A DNA stretch of 64,000 nucleotides from Meiothermus sp. Its GTDB lineage: Bacteria > Deinococcota > Deinococci > Deinococcales > Thermaceae. The notes under the pieces are model-generated. The model did no database searches and was not told the origin of the DNA. It was given only the letters and a program-made list of their open reading frames with translations. The stretch covers positions 124,001 to 188,000 of the forward strand of contig NZ_BPIM01000001.1 of NCBI RefSeq assembly GCF_026004115.1, written 5' to 3'. The first letter of the stretch is position 1. Every line of letters starts with the position of its first letter. Positions 3,229-18,797 of this stretch are shown here, piece by piece. The translations under genes were made by a program, and so were the position numbers.

Positions 3229-3924
3229 ATGAAATACCGGCAAGTCAAGGAAGCGGTCTTGCAAGAGCTCAACAAACCGACCCCGGGCTTTCCTCTATCG
3301 GAAAACAGCCTGGCCCGTCGCTTTGGGGTGAGCCGCATGACCGCCCGGCGAGCCCTGCAGGAGCTTAGCCAGGAAGGTTGGCTCTACCGCACCCAGGGCC
3401 GCCTGAGCACCCCCGCTCCCCGGCGCTTTAACCAGGGTTATTTGCGGGTGCGGCCCTTCTACGAGTTCGCCCGAGCGCAAGGAGCCCAGCCCAAAACCCG
3501 GGTGCTGGCCGCCGAATTGCGCCCCACTCCCACCGGGGTTCGCGAGAAGCTAGGGGTAGAACAAGCCCTCTATGTCGAGCGGCTGCGCTTCCTCGACGAC
3601 GAGCCGGTGCAGCGGGAGGTGCGTTACCTACACCCGGTACACTGCGCCCCGATCCTCGAGCACGACCTCACCAGCGAGTCCATCCACGACCTGCTGGTAC
3701 ACACCCTGGGCCTGCCCCTCACCCGGGTCTGGCAGCGCCTCGAAGCCGTGGCCCTGGGCCAGGACATCGCCAGACTGCTCCAACAGCCCAGCAAAGCCCC
3801 CGCTTTGCGCCTCGAGCGGCTTACCTACACCCTCGAGCAGCCCATCACCTGGGTGGAATACCTGATGCGGGCCGACCGCTACTACCTGGAAGATACCTTT
3901 ATCCCCCAAGGAGAACGCCCATGA
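3229..3924 (+). CDS. hutC: GntR/HutC-family histidine utilisation repressor
   Basis: 231 aa. The N-terminal winged helix-turn-helix (residues about 1-65) contains [20 protein letters not shown], the typical GntR recognition helix. The remainder is a UTRA ligand-binding domain ([19 protein letters not shown] near residue 115, [19 protein letters not shown] at the C-terminus), which places it in the HutC subfamily that senses urocanate. A GAGAGG ribosome site precedes the ATG. The stop overlaps the hutU start as ATGA, so it is co-transcribed with the genes it should regulate, and the palindrome at 3202-3213 lies in its own promoter, implying autoregulation. The specific ligand is inferred from neighbours. 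Confidence 0.88.
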
Positions 3925-5570
3925 CCTACAAAGCGCCCCGAGGACCCAAAACCGCCAAAGGCTGGATCCAGGAAGCCGCCAAGCGCATGCTTCTCAACAA
4001 CCTCGACGCCGAGGTGGCCGAGAAGCCCGAAGAGCTCATCGTCTACGGCGGGCGCGGCAAGGCGGCCCGCAGCCCCCAGGATCTGCAACGTATCCTGGCG
4101 GTGCTCGAGCGGCTCGAGAACGACGAGACCTTGCTGGTGCAGTCGGGCCGGGCGGTGGGGGTGTTCCGCACCCAGCCCCTAGCCCCCCGGGTGATCATCG
4201 CCAACTCCAACCTGGTGCCCCGGTGGGCCACCTGGGAGGAGTTCGACCGGCTGGACCGCCTGGGCCTGATGATGTACGGCCAGATGACGGCGGGAAGCTG
4301 GATCTACATCGGCACCCAGGGCATCCTCCAGGGCACCTACGAGACCTTCGCCGCCGCGGCCCGCAAGCACTTTGGCGGCTCGCTGAAGGGCACCATCACC
4401 GTCACCGGCGGGCTGGGCGGCATGGGCGGGGCACAGCCCCTGGCCGTGACCCTCAATGGCGGGGTGGCGATCTGCGTGGAGATCGACCCCGAGCGCATCC
4501 AGCGCCGCCTGGACACCGCTTATCTGGACGTGCGGGCCAACTCCCTGGACGAGGCGCTCCGCTTGGCCGAAGACGCCAAACACAAGGGCGAGCCCCTCTC
4601 CATCGGGCTCTTGGGCAATACTGCGGAGGTGCTGCCGGAGATGGTGCGCCGGGGCTTCACCCCCGAGCTCGTCACCGACCAGACCAGCGCCCACGACCCC
4701 CTCTACGGCTACATCCCCGTCCTGCACGCCGACGAAGACCCGGCCCTCCTGCGCCAGCGCGACCCCCAGGGCTACAAGGAACGCGTCCTGCACGACATGG
4801 CCACCCACTGCCGCGCCATTGTGGAGATGCAGAAAAAAGGCGCTATCGCCTTCGATTACGGCAACAATCTGCGGGCTTTTGCCCAGTTGGGGGGCTTCGC
4901 GGAAGCTTTCAGCTACCCCGGCTTCGTGCCGGCCTTCATCCGCGACCAGTTCTGCGAGGGGCGCGGCCCTTTTCGCTGGGTGGCGCTCTCCGGCAAACCT
5001 GAGGACATCTACAAGACTGATAAGGCCGTGCTCGAGCTCTTCCCCGAGGACGAGGGCCTACACCGCTGGCTCACCGAGGGGGTGAAGAAGTTCAAGTTCC
5101 AGGGCCTCCCCGCCCGCATCTGCTGGCTGGGTTACAAGGAGCGCGACAAGGCCGGGCTCCTCTTCAACGAGATGGTGGCGAGGGGCGAGGTGGGGGTCCC
5201 CATCGTGATTGGCCGCGACCACCTGGACGCCGGTTCGGTGGCCTCCCCCTACCGCGAGACCGAAGCCATGCTCGACACCTCGGACGCCGTGGCCGACTGG
5301 CCCATCCTGAACTTCGCGCTCAACGCGGTCTCGGGCGCGGCCTGGGTCAGCTTCCACCACGGCGGCGGGGTGGGCATGGGCTACAGCCTGCACGCCGGGC
5401 AGGTCACGGTGGCGGATGGCTCGGAGGAAGCCGCCTACCGATTGGAGCGCGTCCTGACCAACGACCCCGGCACCGGCGTGATGCGCCATGCCCACGCGGG
5501 TTATGACTCGGCCAGGCAGGTCGCCCGCGAGCGCGGCCTGGATCTGGCAGGGTGGGAACAGGAAGGATGA
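3921..5570 (+). CDS. hutU: Urocanate hydratase
   Basis: Second step of the Hut pathway: urocanate plus water to 4-imidazolone-5-propionate, using tightly bound NAD as electrophile. 549 aa, normal for urocanase. The NAD-binding Rossmann loop is visible as [11 protein letters not shown] near residue 166, and the C-terminal family signature as [16 protein letters not shown] near residue 475. Coding is continuous with no frameshift. It overlaps hutC by 4 bp upstream and meets hutI at ATGA downstream, so hutC-U-I form one tightly coupled operon. Confidence 0.96.
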
Positions 5571-11761: not shown

Positions 11762-11846
11762 CAATATCCCTTGCCTGAAGGAAGGGCGGGGTGGCCTGAA
11801 ACTTCTGTTGATGTCTTCTTTTCCGAATCAGGGTAACGGGCTGCCA

Positions 11847-12332
11847 TTAGGCCGTGCGCTGCACATCTGATGCGCTCCGTGGTCTCGCCAACGCCTCGAT
11901 GCTGCGGATGTAGTCGTCCGGAAGCAGATGCTGTCTTGCCCCATCGAGGATGGTCGCAAGGTACCTGGCGCTCGGAGTGAGCGAGTCGTCGATAAACGCC
12001 TTTCCGGCAACGTATGTCACAGCATCCAACTCATCGCCATCGTCAAGTCGGATGCGAATCCCGTATCGCGCATAATGTCCGCCCGCAACTCCCTCGTGCT
12101 CGTCCATCTCGCGGAGAGCATCAGGACGGCACAGGTACACAATGCCCCAGACAGTCGCACCTCCATCTGGAACAATGTTCGCCTTGCCTGTGCCATCGCT
12201 ACCGCGCTTGTTGAACGCCAGCCGGTATCCATCGAGCCGAGCTTGCCGAGCCTCCCTGATAGGTCCCGTGCGCTGCTCCATCTGGCGCCGCGAGAGATTG
12301 CTGCCATAGGCGAAGTACCACTGATCGTTCAC
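11847..12332 (-). CDS. Gamma-glutamylcyclotransferase-like protein (integron cassette gene)
   Basis: 161 aa from a GTG start with GAGGAG 7 bases upstream; the frame extends to 12374, but the upstream part overlaps the preceding attC. WYFAYGSNLSRRQM near the N-terminus is the hallmark substrate-binding loop of the GGCT/AIG2-like fold. GIVYLCRPDALREMDEHEG follows at the expected place, with a Glu that may be the catalytic acid. Possible activity is cyclotransferase on gamma-glutamyl amines; the substrate is unknown. It begins just after the attC at 12359-12419 and its stop codon is inside GCCTAAT, a likely 5' attC core, so it has cassette architecture. Codon use lacks the host CTCGAG style. Confidence 0.8.
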   Translation of the reverse strand: MNDQWYFAYGSNLSRRQMEQRTGPIREARQARLDGYRLAFNKRGSDGTGKANIVPDGGATVWGIVYLCRPDALREMDEHEGVAGGHYARYGIRIRLDDGDELDAVTYVAGKAFIDDSLTPSARYLATILDGARQHLLPDDYIRSIEALARPRSASDVQRTA

Positions 12333-12358
12333 GGTGGACTCCTCAGTCTTTCTCTTCG

Positions 12359-12419
12359 TCCTAACGCCCTGCATCAGTGGTGGCGCCTCAGTGCCGTCCG
12401 CTACAACCGGTTGTTAGGC
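12359..12419 (-). repeat. attC site of the methyltransferase cassette
   Basis: 61 bp. On the - strand it starts GCCTAAC (matching the RYYYAAC core) and ends GTTAGGA (one off GTTRRRY). CCTAAC and GTTAGG pair perfectly as outer arms. The inner stem is weak compared with the other two sites, but a 12-bp palindrome ACAACCGGTTGT lies next to the first core. The methyltransferase stop codon falls inside the site, as is common in cassettes. Confidence 0.65.
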
Positions 12420-12847
12420 CGCGGTAGCGCAACCTCCCGAAGGGGATCACCGCCATCTAGGAAAAGACGTCCATCTTTGACCAGAGCGTGAGCAATGCGA
12501 TTAAGTGCCGCACGCTCTAACTCTGGATGCCGCCCGTCAAGTGCGCCGACTCGTACCGCAAACGCAATGTCATAGGGCTTCTCGCCTTCCTGGAGCACGA
12601 AGTCCTCGACAGCGACCTGACGAAAGCTCAAGCGACCAGAAGCGATCTCAGACCCCGAACCTGCCACGGCTTGCGCAATAGCCTTGGCTGATCGGTCTAT
12701 GCCCAGAACATGCCCGTTCCCAATCCGACGTGCTATGGCACGTGCGGCAACGCCCGGGCCGCACCCAATCTCCAGCACTCGAAGACCAGGCCGCAATGGC
12801 AGAGCCTCGACGATCTCAGCAAGTCTGGGAGATATGTCACCGGTCAT
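12401..12847 (-). CDS. SAM-dependent methyltransferase (integron cassette gene)
   Basis: 148 aa from the ATG at 12847 (MTGDISPRLAEIV), with AAAGGAGC upstream; an in-frame start at 12910 would lie inside the preceding attC. LRVLEIGCGPGVAARAIA is class I methyltransferase motif I (SAM binding), and VLGIDRSAKAIAQA is motif II with the ribose-binding Asp. The protein is short and ends PNNRL inside the attC, so the C-terminal strands of the Rossmann fold may be trimmed or supplied by the attC sequence. The substrate is unknown. It is flanked by attC sites on both sides and has atypical codon use. Confidence 0.8.
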   Translation of the reverse strand: MTGDISPRLAEIVEALPLRPGLRVLEIGCGPGVAARAIARRIGNGHVLGIDRSAKAIAQAVAGSGSEIASGRLSFRQVAVEDFVLQEGEKPYDIAFAVRVGALDGRHPELERAALNRIAHALVKDGRLFLDGGDPLREVALPRPNNRL

Positions 12848-12891
12848 TCGGTTTGTGCTCCTTTCGGCATCGCGAAATGATTCTTTCCGCG

Positions 12892-12969
12892 GCCCAACGA
12901 CCAAACTCACGTGTAAAACGTGACGGCCAAAGGCCGGCGCGTTTTATCACGTGCAGTGCCTGGTTGTGC
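12892..12969 (-). repeat. attC site of the interrupted cassette
   Basis: 78 bp. Read on the + strand it runs from GCCCAAC (12892-12898) to GTTGTGC (12963-12969); on the - strand these are GCACAAC and GTTGGGC, the latter a perfect GTTRRRY. Between them is a long imperfect hairpin: CACGTGTAAAACG pairs with CGTTTTATCACGTG leaving one unpaired T, and GGCC arms flank an AAA loop. The unpaired base is what IntI uses to choose the folded bottom strand. Confidence 0.85.
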
Positions 12970-12979
12970 CGCGACCGAG

Positions 12980-13321
12980 TCAAGACAACCATGATTTTAT
13001 TCGGCTCCATAAAGAAACATTTCTGGGCACTTCTTCACCCGTAATTAACTTCTCTAACTTCAGACCAAATCGTTCGCTAAGAGTGCGAAGTTTTTCTTGA
13101 TTGGGATCTCTATCGTTAGGAATATAAACTGAAAATGTGTAAGTGTCGTGATAGGGTGAAGGGCCGCCGCACCTAACATACCACTCTGTTTCTAGGTAGC
13201 CAGCGACATTACCACCATTCAAAAACTCAATCCAGTAAGGAGGGACAGACTCATCTGGCCCTTTGCGAACAAGATACTCTTTAAGCTGCTCGAAAGAGTT
13301 AACCCCAATTCGGAAAAACAA
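12980..13321 (-). pseudogene. C-terminal fragment of an unknown cassette gene
   Basis: About 110 residues (FFRIGVNSFEQLKEYLV ... WSRIKSWLS) form a plausible soluble C-terminus ending 10 bp before the attC at 12892-12969. Upstream of about 13321 the frame runs into IS982-like transposase DNA, so the start is missing. A matching N-terminus is probably the 18-residue piece at 14987-15041. I do not recognise the family. It is AT-rich compared with host genes. Confidence 0.6.
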
Positions 13322-13775
13322 CCCCACCCTATCTCCAGCCTGCGCCCATAAGAGATCAGGAGCTTCCAGGCAGGGTCGTGCTCCATCCGCATGCGCAGAC
13401 CGTAGCCCAGCAATACCGCATAGATGTGAAAGATCAGCCCCCGGGTCTTGCGGTAGGGGCGTTCGCTCAGCCCCAGTCGATCCAGGCTGGAAAAGACGCT
13501 CTCGATGATCCGATGCCCTCTCAACAGGCACCGCTCCCGCTGGCTATGGGGTCGCATGTTCCGCTTATGCCGGGCAATCAGATCCACCCCCTGCCGGGCC
13601 ACCTCCGCCTTGAGCCCTCGGCTCAGGTAGCCCCTGTCTCCCGTGACCACCACATACTTCAACCCCCGTAGCAGCCGCACGGCCACCGTGACATCATGCT
13701 CCTGGGCTGGGCGCAACAGCACCCGGCGCAAATAGCCCCGGTCGTCCACCTGGGCGTGCAAGCGCAATCCGTAAA
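13322..13775 (-). pseudogene. IS982-like transposase remnant (C-terminal half)
   Basis: The frame encodes YGLRLHAQVDDRGYLRRV, VVTGDRGYLSRGLKAEV, and RGHRIIESVFSSLDRLGLSE with a terminal LRMRMEHDP region, the layout of the IS982 branch of DDE transposases (second Asp in TGDRGY, Glu in RIIESVF). The N-terminal half with the first Asp is absent: the remnant stops abruptly at 13775, where the inverted repeat of IS B begins. The left boundary near 13322 is approximate. Codon use is host-like and GC-rich, unlike the flanking cassette DNA. Confidence 0.65.
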
Positions 13776-14986
13776 CAAGAGATTGAACTGTAGTGAAAAG
13801 TATCAAAAAAAGGGCATAAAGTCAGGCTGAAAGGGCAGGGAGTACGGTCAGTAGCTGGGATTTGAGGGTTTTTGCGGCATTGTGCTGTGCTGTGCGCCAA
13901 GAAAGATCTGGATGTAGTTGTTTTTGCTGTCGAATAAGGTGTAGGGCCTCGATGGCAAGGTCAGCATGTTTGAGTTGAGCAGCATAGGAACGAGAGAGGC
14001 ATTTGGATAAACCCAGGTTCTGTTTGAGCAGGCGATGCACCCGCTCCAGATCCCAACGAGCTTTCCAGGCGGCAAGGACTTCTTGAATGCCTGCATCCAG
14101 GGTGGAGAAGAGGGCCATCAGCTTGAAACCTGCTGGCTGGGGTAGCCAAATCAGCAGCATATCCAGTCGACCCACATCGGCCAAGGTGATCTTGATGCGT
14201 TTGACATACCAGCCAAAACGCTTGTAATAGCGGGCTTTACCGGGTGGATAGTGCTCACCCAGTTCTCGGATAGATCGTTGCTTTCCTGCATGTTCGACCT
14301 TTTGATTCAGTCTGGCCCGAGCTACGAAAGGTATGTTGTGCTGGTAGAGCTTGGCGAGGTAAGCCTTACCCGCAAACTGGTTGTCGAACACCACGCCTGC
14401 GAGGCTATAACCATTACCATTCTTGCGGATGGCCTCGACTACCTGCCACATCGCCTCACCAGGGGTTCGGTACGGGTATACCTCCGAACTCATGGGCTTG
14501 GTGGGGAAACCCTCCAGACTCAATGGGTAGGGAAGTTTCCCATATCCAACCAGCCCACATGACAGCAGGTTATGTCCCCACACCGGAGCTTTATCACTGC
14601 TGGAGTACACCCGATCCACGCCCTCGATCCAACATCCTTGATGGGCTACGGGAACCAAGTCCACCCCCAGGTACATCCCCTTGGGGGCTGCTTCCAACCG
14701 TCGCTCTCGACTGGACTGGTGGGGTTTGGCTTCTTGTCGTAGCAGGCGACAGCTATAGCTGGGGCTATACCCTATCGTTCCACTGGCTGCTATCGCGCTG
14801 GGGGTTTTATGGGCTGATTGCAGCAAGCCCAACACATAGCCTTGTTCCCATTGTTGCAAACGCGATAAACTACACTGTACGTCTTCAAACATCGTACAGA
14901 AGTACCGTGCTGACCGGATCCTTTGCAAGGACTCTCGGCACGGTTCTTCTTTATGACGACCTTTTCAGGGGTGGGTCAATCTCTTG
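13776..14986 (-). mobile_element. Insertion sequence B (IS4/IS701-like) with terminal inverted repeats
   Basis: 1211 bp bounded by CAAGAGATTGA at 13776-13786 and its exact inverse TCAATCTCTTG at 14976-14986. The repeats continue imperfectly inward (TGAAAAGT versus TGAAAAGGT). One transposase lies inside. The two flanks do not share a direct repeat and carry different DNA: an IS982-like remnant on the left, a cassette gene start on the right. A deletion therefore accompanied or followed insertion. Confidence 0.75.
13822..14892 (-). CDS. DDE transposase, IS4/IS701-like (IS B)
   Basis: 356 aa from the ATG at 14892 (MFEDVQCSL); a TTG 36 bases upstream is a weaker choice. First Asp in MYLGVDLVPVAH, second in AGVVFDNQFAG, Glu in KARWDLERVHRLLKQNLG, then the conserved SLSRSYAAQLKHADLAIEAL-type tail, parallel to the transposase at 10632-11714. 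The frame is intact. AT content is higher than in IS A, so the two elements probably arrived independently. Confidence 0.82.
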   Translation of the reverse strand: MFEDVQCSLSRLQQWEQGYVLGLLQSAHKTPSAIAASGTIGYSPSYSCRLLRQEAKPHQSSRERRLEAAPKGMYLGVDLVPVAHQGCWIEGVDRVYSSSDKAPVWGHNLLSCGLVGYGKLPYPLSLEGFPTKPMSSEVYPYRTPGEAMWQVVEAIRKNGNGYSLAGVVFDNQFAGKAYLAKLYQHNIPFVARARLNQKVEHAGKQRSIRELGEHYPPGKARYYKRFGWYVKRIKITLADVGRLDMLLIWLPQPAGFKLMALFSTLDAGIQEVLAAWKARWDLERVHRLLKQNLGLSKCLSRSYAAQLKHADLAIEALHLIRQQKQLHPDLSWRTAQHNAAKTLKSQLLTVLPALSA

Positions 14987-15041
14987 ATTCATCAATGCCT
15001 GGGAGATACCCAAAAACAACGGTTATCGTACTTCTACTCAT
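14987..15041 (-). pseudogene. N-terminal fragment of the interrupted cassette gene
   Basis: From an ATG at 15041 with GGTGAGG immediately upstream, 18 codons read MSRSTITVVFGYLPGIDE and then run into the inverted repeat of IS B. It starts 22 bp inside the cassette boundary set by the attC at 15064-15133, the normal place for a cassette start codon. It is probably the lost N-terminus of the gene whose C-terminus is at 12980-13321. The link is inferred from position and strand. Confidence 0.5.
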
Positions 15042-15063
15042 ACCTCACCTAAAAACACAAGCG

Positions 15064-15133
15064 GCCCAACGGCTTGCGTTTCAGCCGCCCGCGTAGCGAA
15101 GCGGAGCGGGTCGGCTGGAAACGCTTGTTATGC
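15064..15133 (-). repeat. attC site of the R-M-S cassette
   Basis: 70 bp. Read on the + strand it runs from GCCCAAC (15064-15070) to GTTATGC (15127-15133); on the - strand these are GCATAAC and GTTGGGC. GCGTTTCAGCCG and CGGCTGGAAACGC pair with one extrahelical G, and CGCCCGC/GCGGGT arms surround a small loop, giving the canonical bottom-strand hairpin. The R-M-S stop codon is 4 bp from its edge. This is the clearest attC in the window. Confidence 0.9.
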
Positions 15134-15137
15134 CGCC

Positions 15138-17708
15138 CTACTCACTGGTTGCAGTGCTTTGTTCTATTTCGCTCGGTTCGATACCGATGTATTCTAGAAA
15201 CGCGATAGTCGCTTTAGTATACGTTTCTTCAAATTCCCTACGTTTTTTCAACCCGTCTTTTATGGCTTCAATAATTGCATTCAACGATTCTTTTTCTTCA
15301 TCAGGTGGTATGGGAATTTGTATCTGTTTCACATCTTTTGGGTAAATGTGCGCAGTCTGTCCCCTAATACATCGTTGGAACGCGCGATACCCATCTTCAG
15401 TTCGTAGATACATAAGGACGTAATAGGGGTCTATTTTTTCAGGATTTACCCTAATGACCATAATCTCTGCAACGCACATTACTTTGCCTTGATATTCTTC
15501 TGGAATGTAATCCACAATATCGACCTCAGCGCCTATATATTTAGGGTGGTGTGCGGCTGTTCCAACAACAATATCACCTATTTGAACCCTTTTAGCGATA
15601 TTCTTTTGGTAAAAATCTTCAGTTACGAAGGCTCTTTCATTCAAACTCCAATCAATTCCACGATTTGTAATGTTCCGAAACTTAATAATTCGGATGCCAG
15701 AATCAGTATAAGCATTGCGCGGAGGGGTTGTGCCACTGAAAATCACACCATCACAAAGTTCATCCAACGTTTTTGTTTGCCATCCTTTTGCCCCACTACT
15801 TCCAACGAACAATTCTGGAGCAAAACCAGCGGTCAATTGGGTTGCGTTTACAACAAAAGAAAGACGCGAAAGATTTGTCTGACCGTGTTGGTATTTCTCA
15901 TAATCTTCGACAATTAGGGGCAAATCATTTCTTGGATCAGTTCTGCCTGTGTTATCGTAACCGACATGCCTGGCAATAGAGATAAAAACAGGATAATCCA
16001 AAGACGGATTCTTGACTTTTTTCTTGGTCAGGAATAGTACACTCGCTTTCCCTACTCCCTTAAATGGGGCAAAAGTTTGTGGCGGTAGAGATACGATAGC
16101 ATCAACTCGACAGGAGTCCAAAATAAAATCGCGTACGAATTTCATCCACGTGTTTGTCAGTATGCTCTGGGGAAGAACAATAGCCATTCGTCCACCAGGG
16201 CGTAAGAATTGAAGGGTTCTTTCCAAGCCGAGAATTTCTAGAGGTAATGAATCCCGTCCTTTTCCAAGTTCAAACCTACCAAGTATTTGCATTACTTCTC
16301 CCGTCAGTAATGCACCAAACGGGGGATTAGTCATTGCCACATGGAATACTTCTGGGCTTGTATTATCTTCGCCAGCAAGGGCCTTTATATCTGGATAATT
16401 ATCAAAACTTAACAAGGCATCAGTACAACGAATGTTGCTATGACCATCATCATGCAACATCATGTCGGTCATAGCAATCCGAACCATCTTGGGGTCTTTC
16501 TCAATCCCGTGCAAGTGAAAGAAAGCGAATTGTCTGTAAAAGTAATCGTCAATCTTGCCCTTATATTTTTTCTCCACATATTCGAGTGATACAGTCAAAA
16601 AGTGACCACTGCCACAGAAAGGGTCAAGTATCATCTCGTGTGGTTTGGGGTCAATCATTTCAACAATCATTCTAACAACAGGGTCAGGGGTAAAATATTG
16701 CCCCATGCCAGAACGTACGGCTGTACCAATTACCTGCTGAAATGCTTGTCCTTTTATATCAGTAGTGCTATCAATAAAACTATATTCCTGCAAGAGCTCA
16801 ACAACACGAAGAAGCGCGGCACTGCTTAGTCTGATTTGGTCTTTGAAAACTCCGCGCGACCTTTCGTAATTTGGAATGCGTTGAGTATATGTTTCGAGGT
16901 CGCTCCTGCGTGCTTCATCGTATAGGTCGCGAATATTCGACGCTATTTCTTCAGTATTTCCACCGTAAGTTTGGAAGACAAACGCTGTTCCAACTTCTTT
17001 TTGAATGGTCATGCGTTCATCATAAATCTTCGCATAAATAACTTTGCACAATTCATCGAGACTTTCATCATCGTGCAGGTTATCAATAGAACGGATGGCA
17101 CTGTGACACTGAAAAAGAATATCCGTATATCTTTCGTCTATGGGTTTTAGACCTGTCCTTTTCCCTTTCGTTGGGTAATCTGGGATTTCTCGAACCAGTT
17201 TCACTTTTTGCCGGAGTTCGCCCGACTCGTAGGATGGAATATCCGGAATGTAATCAAAATCATTTGGGTCTATTTTCTTTAACTTAACTCTGGTTCTGGC
17301 TGGTGTTCCATCAGTAACCATGCCAATAGTGGCTGTATGCGTAGCAGAAAGGTAGCCCTCTAATTGTCTCTCTGCTTTCCCAAATTCAGCATAAGATATG
17401 CCAGAGTTCTTTGTCTCAATGAATAAATACGTTTTACCCCTTTCATTCTTTATGGAAATATCGGCTTCCTTCTCCATCGTTGCCATTTGAACAGTTTCTT
17501 CAACGATAATTCGCTCGCCGAGCCACTCTCTAGGGTAACCATACGTTTCAATCAGTTCACGAAGAACCCACTGACGAACATACTCTTCGATGTCCCGCTC
17601 GTCCATTTGGGGATTCTCTATGGCTTTCCTTTGAGCAGTGGCAACATCGGCATTTGTCGTAAGAAGCCAATCTTCTGGTGGAATACGATAAAAAGGGCGT
17701 ATTTTCAT
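15138..17708 (-). CDS. Single-chain restriction-modification enzyme (R-M-S fusion), first integron cassette
   Basis: 856 aa. Residues 1-160 resemble an HsdR-type N-terminal nuclease: Asp83 in KEADIS, Glu98 and Lys100 in LFIETKNSG form a PD-(D/E)xK site. Residues about 290-620 are an N6-adenine methyltransferase of HsdM type with DPFCGSG (362-368, SAM binding) and NPPFG (461-465, catalytic). Residues about 640-856 look like one HsdS target-recognition domain followed by a coiled helix. This is the layout of type IIG or type I-like single-polypeptide R-M systems. DNA is clearly AT-richer than the host. It starts about 30 bp from the attI junction and ends at an attC, so it occupies the position best placed for expression. 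Confidence 0.85.
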   Translation of the reverse strand: MKIRPFYRIPPEDWLLTTNADVATAQRKAIENPQMDERDIEEYVRQWVLRELIETYGYPREWLGERIIVEETVQMATMEKEADISIKNERGKTYLFIETKNSGISYAEFGKAERQLEGYLSATHTATIGMVTDGTPARTRVKLKKIDPNDFDYIPDIPSYESGELRQKVKLVREIPDYPTKGKRTGLKPIDERYTDILFQCHSAIRSIDNLHDDESLDELCKVIYAKIYDERMTIQKEVGTAFVFQTYGGNTEEIASNIRDLYDEARRSDLETYTQRIPNYERSRGVFKDQIRLSSAALLRVVELLQEYSFIDSTTDIKGQAFQQVIGTAVRSGMGQYFTPDPVVRMIVEMIDPKPHEMILDPFCGSGHFLTVSLEYVEKKYKGKIDDYFYRQFAFFHLHGIEKDPKMVRIAMTDMMLHDDGHSNIRCTDALLSFDNYPDIKALAGEDNTSPEVFHVAMTNPPFGALLTGEVMQILGRFELGKGRDSLPLEILGLERTLQFLRPGGRMAIVLPQSILTNTWMKFVRDFILDSCRVDAIVSLPPQTFAPFKGVGKASVLFLTKKKVKNPSLDYPVFISIARHVGYDNTGRTDPRNDLPLIVEDYEKYQHGQTNLSRLSFVVNATQLTAGFAPELFVGSSGAKGWQTKTLDELCDGVIFSGTTPPRNAYTDSGIRIIKFRNITNRGIDWSLNERAFVTEDFYQKNIAKRVQIGDIVVGTAAHHPKYIGAEVDIVDYIPEEYQGKVMCVAEIMVIRVNPEKIDPYYVLMYLRTEDGYRAFQRCIRGQTAHIYPKDVKQIQIPIPPDEEKESLNAIIEAIKDGLKKRREFEETYTKATIAFLEYIGIEPSEIEQSTATSE

Positions 17709-17739
17709 TGACCTACACCTTGCTTGAATGAATTAAGCG

Positions 17740-17810
17740 GCATAACTAGTGATTAAATGTCACGCTGTCCTATAACACCCCGTACTAGGATGTTATCCGA
17801 TATGTCGGAT
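17740..17810. other. attI-like site and intI/cassette divergent control region
   Basis: GTTATGC on the - strand (17746-17740) matches the cassette-boundary core and is followed by CGC, as at the attC junctions, so cassette 1 begins TTATGCCGC here. Two more GTTAT-type cores lie to its right (near 17771 and 17791). A 16-bp dyad, ATCCGA-TATG-TCGGAT, spans 17795-17810. The site lies between the integrase start and the first cassette, where attI is expected. attI boundaries cannot be fixed by eye, and I could not identify the cassette promoter with confidence. Confidence 0.6.
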
Positions 17811-18797
17811 GTTTCCCATAGCCAAAAACGGTACTCGCCCAAAACTTCCCCCTTTCTCAACGAGATTCGCAATGTTCTGAGGCTCAAGCATATGAGCCGA
17901 CGCACGGAAACCTCGTATGTGTATTACATATTAGACTTCATTCGCTTTCACGGCAAGCGCCACCCAAACGAGATGGGGGTCGAGGAAATCCGGGCTTACC
18001 TATCCCACTTGGCTACCAAGAACAACGTGGCGGCCTCTACCCAGAACGTAGCCCTATCGGCGCTGCTCTTCTTGTACCGCCAGGTGCTGAAAGTCAACCT
18101 ACCCGACATCGAGAACATTGAAAGGGCCAGGCGCTCTCGGCGGGTTCCGGTGGTGTTCACCCGTGGCGAGGTAGAGCAGGTTTTATCTCGTGCTTCGGGC
18201 ATCCACCATCTGATTTTGAGCCTGCTGTATGGAACCGGGATGCGCCTGTCCGAATGCCTGAGCCTGCGGGTGAAGGATTTGGATTTCGAGCGGCTAGAGG
18301 TTACAGTTCGGGATGGCAAGGGTGAGCGAGATCGGCGAACCATGCTCCCACGCAAACTGGTTCCGGCGCTCCACCGGCAGCACGAGTACGCCCGGCGTAT
18401 GCACCAGCTAGACCTGGAAGAAGGCTTCGGTGAGGTCGAGATGCCCTACGCTCTGGCTCGTAAATACCCCAACGCGGCCAAGGAGTGGGGCTGGCAGTAT
18501 GTATTTCCTGCGGCTCATCGTTCAAAAGACCCCCGCACGGGACGGGTAGGGCGGCATCATCTGCTAGAGCACACAGTGCAACGCGCCATGAAAAAAGCCG
18601 TACGCGCAGCAGGTATTCATAAGCACGCCAGCGTCCACACCCTGCGCCACAGCTTCGCCACCCACTTGCTGGAGTCAGGTTACGATATCCGCACCGTGCA
18701 GGAGCTATTAGGCCATAAGGACGTAAAAACCACCATGGTTTACACGCACGTCTTGAGCCAGGGTGCAAGGGGCGTTCGCAGCCCGCTCGATTCATAG
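17757..18797 (+). CDS. intI: Integron integrase (IntI-type tyrosine recombinase)
   Basis: 346 aa on the longest frame. Tyrosine recombinase residues are all present: Arg163 (GTGMRLSE), His294 and Arg297 (HTLRHSF), His320 (LLGHKDV), Tyr329 (MVYTHV). What separates it from XerC/D is the extra IntI-specific segment at about 228-267, including [20 protein letters not shown] and DPRTG..GRHH, and the C-terminal GVRSPLD. The N-terminal [19 protein letters not shown] also matches IntI. ATGs at 17757, 17790 and 17802 are all possible; the last gives the usual spacing to the first helix, and none has a strong Shine-Dalgarno. It is divergent from the array and its stop overlaps the convergent ureohydrolase by 6 bp. 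Confidence 0.92.

Follow-up and report, generated by a model that had tools for sequence, protein, structure and literature searches.

The gene at positions 15138-17708 (minus strand) of the 64,000-nucleotide stretch of Meiothermus DNA analysed here, hereafter called the window, encodes a restriction nuclease, an N6-adenine methyltransferase and a target recognition domain (TRD) in a single chain of 856 amino acids. Judged from its sequence, this gene forms the attI-proximal cassette of a genuine integron. We consider it likely that the protein is a HaeIV-like Type II (IIB/IIG) restriction-modification (RM) enzyme that entered a chromosomal integron through the integrase IntI and acts as a dimer. 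The architecture of the enzyme itself is already known, and the window protein adds a member. The less expected part, which is modestly novel, is the host lineage together with the sharing of platform and cassette type across phyla.

The gene and its cassette borders

The open reading frame is uninterrupted, and three Pfam matches, all of which exceed their curated cut-offs, account for the three activities. HSDR_N_2 (4.7e-16) covers residues 41-158, a PD-(D/E)xK nuclease domain with D83, E98 and K100 (17235-17588, minus strand, as are the other domains). N6_Mtase (4.8e-32) covers residues 320-569, the N6-adenine methyltransferase domain with the motifs DPFCGSG and NPPFG (16002-16751). Methylase_S (1.1e-9) matches exactly one stretch, residues 641-822 (15243-15788), which means that the protein has only one TRD, of a Type I-like kind. 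A long C-terminal helix is predicted at residues 804-840 (15189-15299) and is proposed to serve dimerisation. There is no helicase domain among the Pfam matches of the protein.

When the protein was aligned with 16 relatives, D83, E98 and the NPPF motif were invariant in all 17 sequences, DPFCGSG was nearly so, and K100 was kept in all but one, a Zafaria protein (locus L043) that carries alanine. A phmmer alignment pairs D83, E98 and K100 with the BsaXI residues D90, E105 and K107, whose alanine mutants are inactive (PMC11997821). The BsaXI RM subunit is also the best sequence match in the PDB (9.4e-33), and its chains are the top Foldseek matches (2.6e-25), followed by Type I M subunits, while the TRD matches an S subunit in the PDB (4e-9). 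In the AlphaFold model the nuclease core has the order alpha-beta-beta-beta-alpha-beta, with pLDDT values mostly of 79-92 over residues 40-140. The TRD region is poorly modelled (mostly 25-47), and the C-terminal helix is predicted with values of only about 45-64. Because the TRD region models poorly, statements about dimerisation and specificity rest on homology. Taken as a sequence, this is a real, well-delimited and functional-looking enzyme gene.

Next to the gene, positions 17757-18797 (plus strand) encode an integron integrase of 346 amino acids, which matches TIGR02249 with 464.7 bits against a cut-off of 265 (E = 1.6e-139). The cassette-proximal part of attI (..TTAATCACTAG^TT; 17746-17756, minus strand) lies between them. 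The window and the relatives G014 and G015 match nearly base for base up to ACTAG^TT, with G018 and G008 similar, and beyond that point the window and each of these relatives holds a different cassette. Because four relatives share the sequence up to the crossover and then diverge, attI and its crossover between 17746 and 17745 can be mapped to the base.

The RM cassette, delimited by G^TT crossover points, measures 2676 bp (15070-17745, minus strand). Its attC site, attC1 (15064-15133, minus strand; R'' GCATAAC, R' GTTGGGC), begins directly after the stop codon of the gene and folds as single-stranded DNA with z = -3.3. It is found once in the genome, and is 83-84% identical to the attC sites of G008 and of Pyrinomonas. 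The R'' side, GCGGCATAAC, exactly complements the start of the cassette, GTTATGCCGC, at 10/10 bases; the corresponding comparison also gives 10/10 in G008 and a match over the 7-base box in G014 and G018. An attC scan score was rejected as sole evidence, as twenty simulated windows of 64 kb gave six matches scoring at least 13. Scores this high thus arise in random sequence as well, and the case for attC1 is built on position, boundary complementarity and homology. An Rfam scan of the window gave no match.

Same-genus relatives (G006, G005, G015 and G014) carry intI genes with 88-95% protein identity, and beside these genes the homology to the right flank of the window, on the arginase side, goes on. 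This marks the integron as a sedentary chromosomal one. With a tyrosine recombinase of the IntI subfamily, an attI site that abuts varied cassettes, and an attC site with R'' and R' boxes and a hairpin, Meiothermus thus has what looks like a working integron, its attI and attC resolved to the base. The phylum list of a 2021 integron review does not include Deinococcota (PMC8618304), and a full-text literature search of incomplete coverage turned up no description of an integron for either Meiothermus or Deinococcota. A Thermus "integron" (PMC5529391) is described there as a prophage with attL and attR.

The GC content of the gene is 42%, compared with 61.5% across the window. Among 100 related genomes the gene itself was the sole full-length match and other matches reached at most 35% identity, so that no close homologue was present. 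A plasmid search likewise gave no close relative, with at most 33% identity among the matches listed, and a scan of IMG/VR returned only two similar contigs, both with split RM and S genes. The RM homologue from Pyrinomonas is AT-rich too, with 43.6% GC within a locus of about 62%. An initial annotation of this DNA had proposed a single-chain enzyme with the residues and motifs listed above, carried on foreign, AT-rich DNA as an attI-proximal cassette with its attC. The intact frame and its three domains, the conservation of these residues with RM relatives and BsaXI, the mapped borders, the base composition and the lack of a close homologue in the 100 related genomes all agree with that description.

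Predicted mode of action

The closest characterised architecture is that of HaeIV, which is described as R~M~[GAY], forms a homodimer, recognises GAY N5 RTC and cuts on both sides of it (PMC3874165; PMC4081073). Like HaeIV, the window protein unites a nuclease, a gamma-type N6-methyltransferase and a single TRD in one polypeptide, with intact motifs and no translocase. The likeness is one of described architecture, and carriage on an integron cassette is a feature of the window protein. Its single Type I-like TRD, its long C-terminal helix and its half-S relatives argue for a dimer that reads an interrupted palindrome, and engineered fusions of HsdM with half of HsdS are known to dimerise, to be active and to read palindromes (PMC6158711).

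The gene would have been inserted into the chromosomal integron by IntI-mediated recombination between attI and attC. Two copies of the protein would then pair via the long helix at the C-terminus of their half-S domains, and the paired TRDs, inverted relative to each other, would read the interrupted palindrome. The two methyltransferase domains would place m6A on both strands of host sites, while the two N-terminal PD-(D/E)xK domains would cut unmodified invading DNA on both sides, at a fixed short distance from the site. Because a helicase domain is absent, cleavage is expected to proceed without ATP-driven translocation. The initial annotation had anticipated an asymmetric m6A motif, which is probably wrong: given that HaeIV, a homodimer of single chains with one TRD each, is the closest characterised architecture, a symmetric bipartite m6A site with cuts on both sides is more likely.

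A different outcome would be expected from a monomer of the MmeI/Eco57I-like Type IIG kind, which reads an uninterrupted asymmetric site, with methylation of one strand and cleavage on a single side. Type IIG enzymes share the R-M-TRD order (PMC6158711), and one TRD per chain is what the window protein has. However, this TRD is of the Type I Methylase_S type and homologous to separate half-S proteins, the nearest solved enzyme by fold and sequence alike is the bipartite Type IIB enzyme BsaXI rather than BpuSI or DrdV, and the predicted C-terminal helix fits dimerisation. We therefore regard a Type IIG monomer as unlikely. Less probable again is a methyltransferase that only methylates or regulates and whose nuclease domain is vestigial. 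Orphan N6-methyltransferases do exist, and the fused Zafaria relative lacks the catalytic lysine, but the window protein and 15 of its 16 relatives retain D, E and K together, and the nuclease core of the window protein models well.

Membership in a larger defence system such as MADS or a BREX-like system, as opposed to a stand-alone RM enzyme, was suggested by a weak resemblance to the MAD2/MAD5 and PglX profiles. The scores lie far under the curated cut-offs, with 256.4 bits for the MAD2 equivalog where 720 are required, so this membership was rejected, and the protein belongs to no curated equivalog. Moreover, partner genes are absent from the cassette, and the relatives are two-gene RM and S units whose surroundings vary, which leaves such a role very improbable. 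Classification as a Type I RM system (HsdRMS) was likewise rejected, as the protein has no helicase domain and its partners in the array are unrelated. A separate locus near 1.25 Mb of contig C1 holds an S protein with two TRDs and a methyltransferase-like open reading frame.

The favoured reading as a HaeIV-like dimer can be set against several other known systems. BsaXI is a Type IIB enzyme of composition (RM)2S, and its RM subunit resembles the window protein in the ways noted above, but it works with a separate S subunit that has two TRDs, and its RM subunit of 916 amino acids has a C-terminal "paddle". The RM core of the window protein, of about 605 residues, stops well before the position of the paddle (residues 811-823) and is fused to one TRD. 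Because the core ends short of this element, in which two residues are essential for BsaXI, the geometry of cleavage may differ. In the AhdI-type "Type 1 1/2" methyltransferases (2M plus 2 half-S), S proteins with a single TRD also pair and read a palindrome (PMC3874165), but there M has no fused nuclease and R is a separate enzyme. AloI and TstI, which are single-chain Type IIB enzymes (TstI is a homotetramer), share the combination of nuclease, methyltransferase and recognition in one chain (PMC4027205). They differ in having two different TRDs, a length of about 1250 amino acids and asymmetric bipartite sites.

As the first cassette after attI, the gene would, as is usual in integrons, be open to transcription from any promoter that the integrase and attI region contains. 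A search near attI, which is a weak test, found no sigma-70-like promoter.

Enzyme family and origin of the fusion

A search of genome contigs yielded 22 related loci from several phyla, most of them 52-63% identical over residues 1-605. Their usual state is that of two adjacent genes, one for an RM protein of about 615 amino acids and one for an S protein of about 230-285 amino acids with a single TRD. This layout of RM plus half-S occurs in about 13 relatives, whose genes usually overlap by 4-38 bases. The family is thus a compact R-M-half-S one that normally occupies two genes and is seen here joined into one chain.

Among the relatives found, only the window protein and the Zafaria protein are fused. 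The RM core of the window protein (about 605-615 amino acids) clusters with that of a split locus, L026 (support 95/91), and the separate S protein of L026 is the most similar to the window TRD, with 42.5% identity. The TRD of the fused Zafaria protein is only about 25% identical to it. The window gene probably arose recently by in-frame fusion of an RM gene and a single-TRD S gene. Because its core groups with a split locus and its TRD is so unlike that of Zafaria, the two fusions are probably independent, and a single lineage of all fused proteins was rejected on the same grounds.

The Zafaria fusion itself (L043, 5848-8493) has alanine in place of the catalytic lysine of the nuclease motif. 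The S proteins of most split relatives (L028-L042) carry a nearly identical TRD (GRWDIDFHLPPE...GSSYPAILDEDV), which predicts one common target across proteobacteria and others.

The platform in other hosts and the rest of the array

The same arrangement, with intI, the same attI and a related RM cassette, is present in Pyrinomonas methylaliphatogenes K22, a member of the Acidobacteriota (L027, 4899-10514), at a locus inside a 443-kb contig. At the DNA level the Pyrinomonas intI shares 97.3% identity with that of the window, compared with 86-93% for the best four congeners. It contains two single-base frameshifts that lie in short base runs and could stem from sequencing errors. The head of the Pyrinomonas cassette is 86-89% identical to the window, and the remaining RM gene falls to about 50-72% per 100 columns, a sharp drop that suggests recombination. 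Past the intI stop codon, about 15-20 bases resemble the Thermaceae flank, which is a hint that the platform may have come to Pyrinomonas from Thermaceae.

In Pyrinomonas RM (612 amino acids) and S (268 amino acids) are two genes, and their cassette closes with an attC 83% identical to attC1. A proteobacterial metagenome-assembled genome (L037) likewise has RM and S flanked by G^TTGGGC on one side and, on the other, by an attC whose R'' matches it. According to the initial annotation, the enzyme can move as a unit because it is a single polypeptide. These two-gene cassettes, and a different two-gene methyltransferase cassette in G008, speak against this view: since split versions move as cassettes too, fusion is unnecessary for cassette mobility. 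In Pyrinomonas, an IscB-like gene (RRXRR and HNH domains; 8648-10400 of L027) is inserted behind RM and S and before the attC. In L037, the stretch that holds the RM and S cassette also contains a HEPN (LA2681-like) gene (3693-5222), possibly a further defence cassette.

Other first-slot cassettes differ in content. The attI-proximal cassette of G008, of about 3 kb (L053, 6667-9800), encodes an N6/N4 DNA methyltransferase of 520 amino acids and a protein of 446 amino acids that has no Pfam or PADLOC match and is a candidate restriction partner. In G015 (L050, 8756-9637) the product of this cassette has an Abi_C (abortive infection) domain. The first slot also holds ordinary enzymes or unknowns, namely an SDR in G014 and a DUF1697 protein in G018. 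Counting the window RM gene, the split RM and S genes of Pyrinomonas, the G008 methyltransferase pair and the G015 Abi_C gene as anti-phage examples, an enrichment of the first slot for defence genes in the genus or family is suggestive only. It is a tentative proposal, somewhat more doubtful than not, that in hot habitats the platform has been exchanged, along with its attI-proximal RM cassette, between Thermaceae and Acidobacteriota, with the first slot preferentially anti-phage. If the transfer of the platform is true, integrons would carry immunity between distant thermophiles, beyond their role in antibiotic resistance among Proteobacteria.

Restriction and methylation cassettes in integrons have been reported before (PMC8618304; PMC12444791), as have phage-defence genes as cassettes (Darracq 2025, Getz 2025 and Kieffer 2025, as cited in PMC12444791). 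The cited defence cassettes come from Vibrio and from mobile integrons, and those of PMC12444791 itself from Xanthomonas, whereas the present cases concern Thermaceae and Acidobacteriota and, in the window, a 2.7-kb single-chain RM cassette.

Three further cassettes, all on the minus strand, follow the RM cassette in the window. Cassette 2 (12898-15069) is interrupted by transposase genes (13822-14928, with a fragment at 13219-13806); its start matches the R'' of its attC at 9/10 bases, and this attC2 (12892-12969) folds with z = -4.8. Cassette 3 (12365-12897) holds, by domain match, a fragment of a SAM-dependent methyltransferase of a small-molecule type, outside the RM system, and ends in a weak attC3 (12359-12419; GCCTAAC...GTTAGGA) that was read by eye and has a fold z of only -1.0. 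Cassette 4 (11838-12364), with a gene that matches AIG2/gamma-glutamyl cyclotransferase-like domains and only a remnant of an attC, is the end of the array, and past it the homology to the syntenic G002 locus picks up again at 11807-11837. Elsewhere in the assembly, a 35.5-kb contig (G000:C3, L055) carries a diverged copy of both integron flanks and a remnant of intI. It is 86-97% identical to the window and 95-97% identical to G002, and represents either a duplication or contamination.
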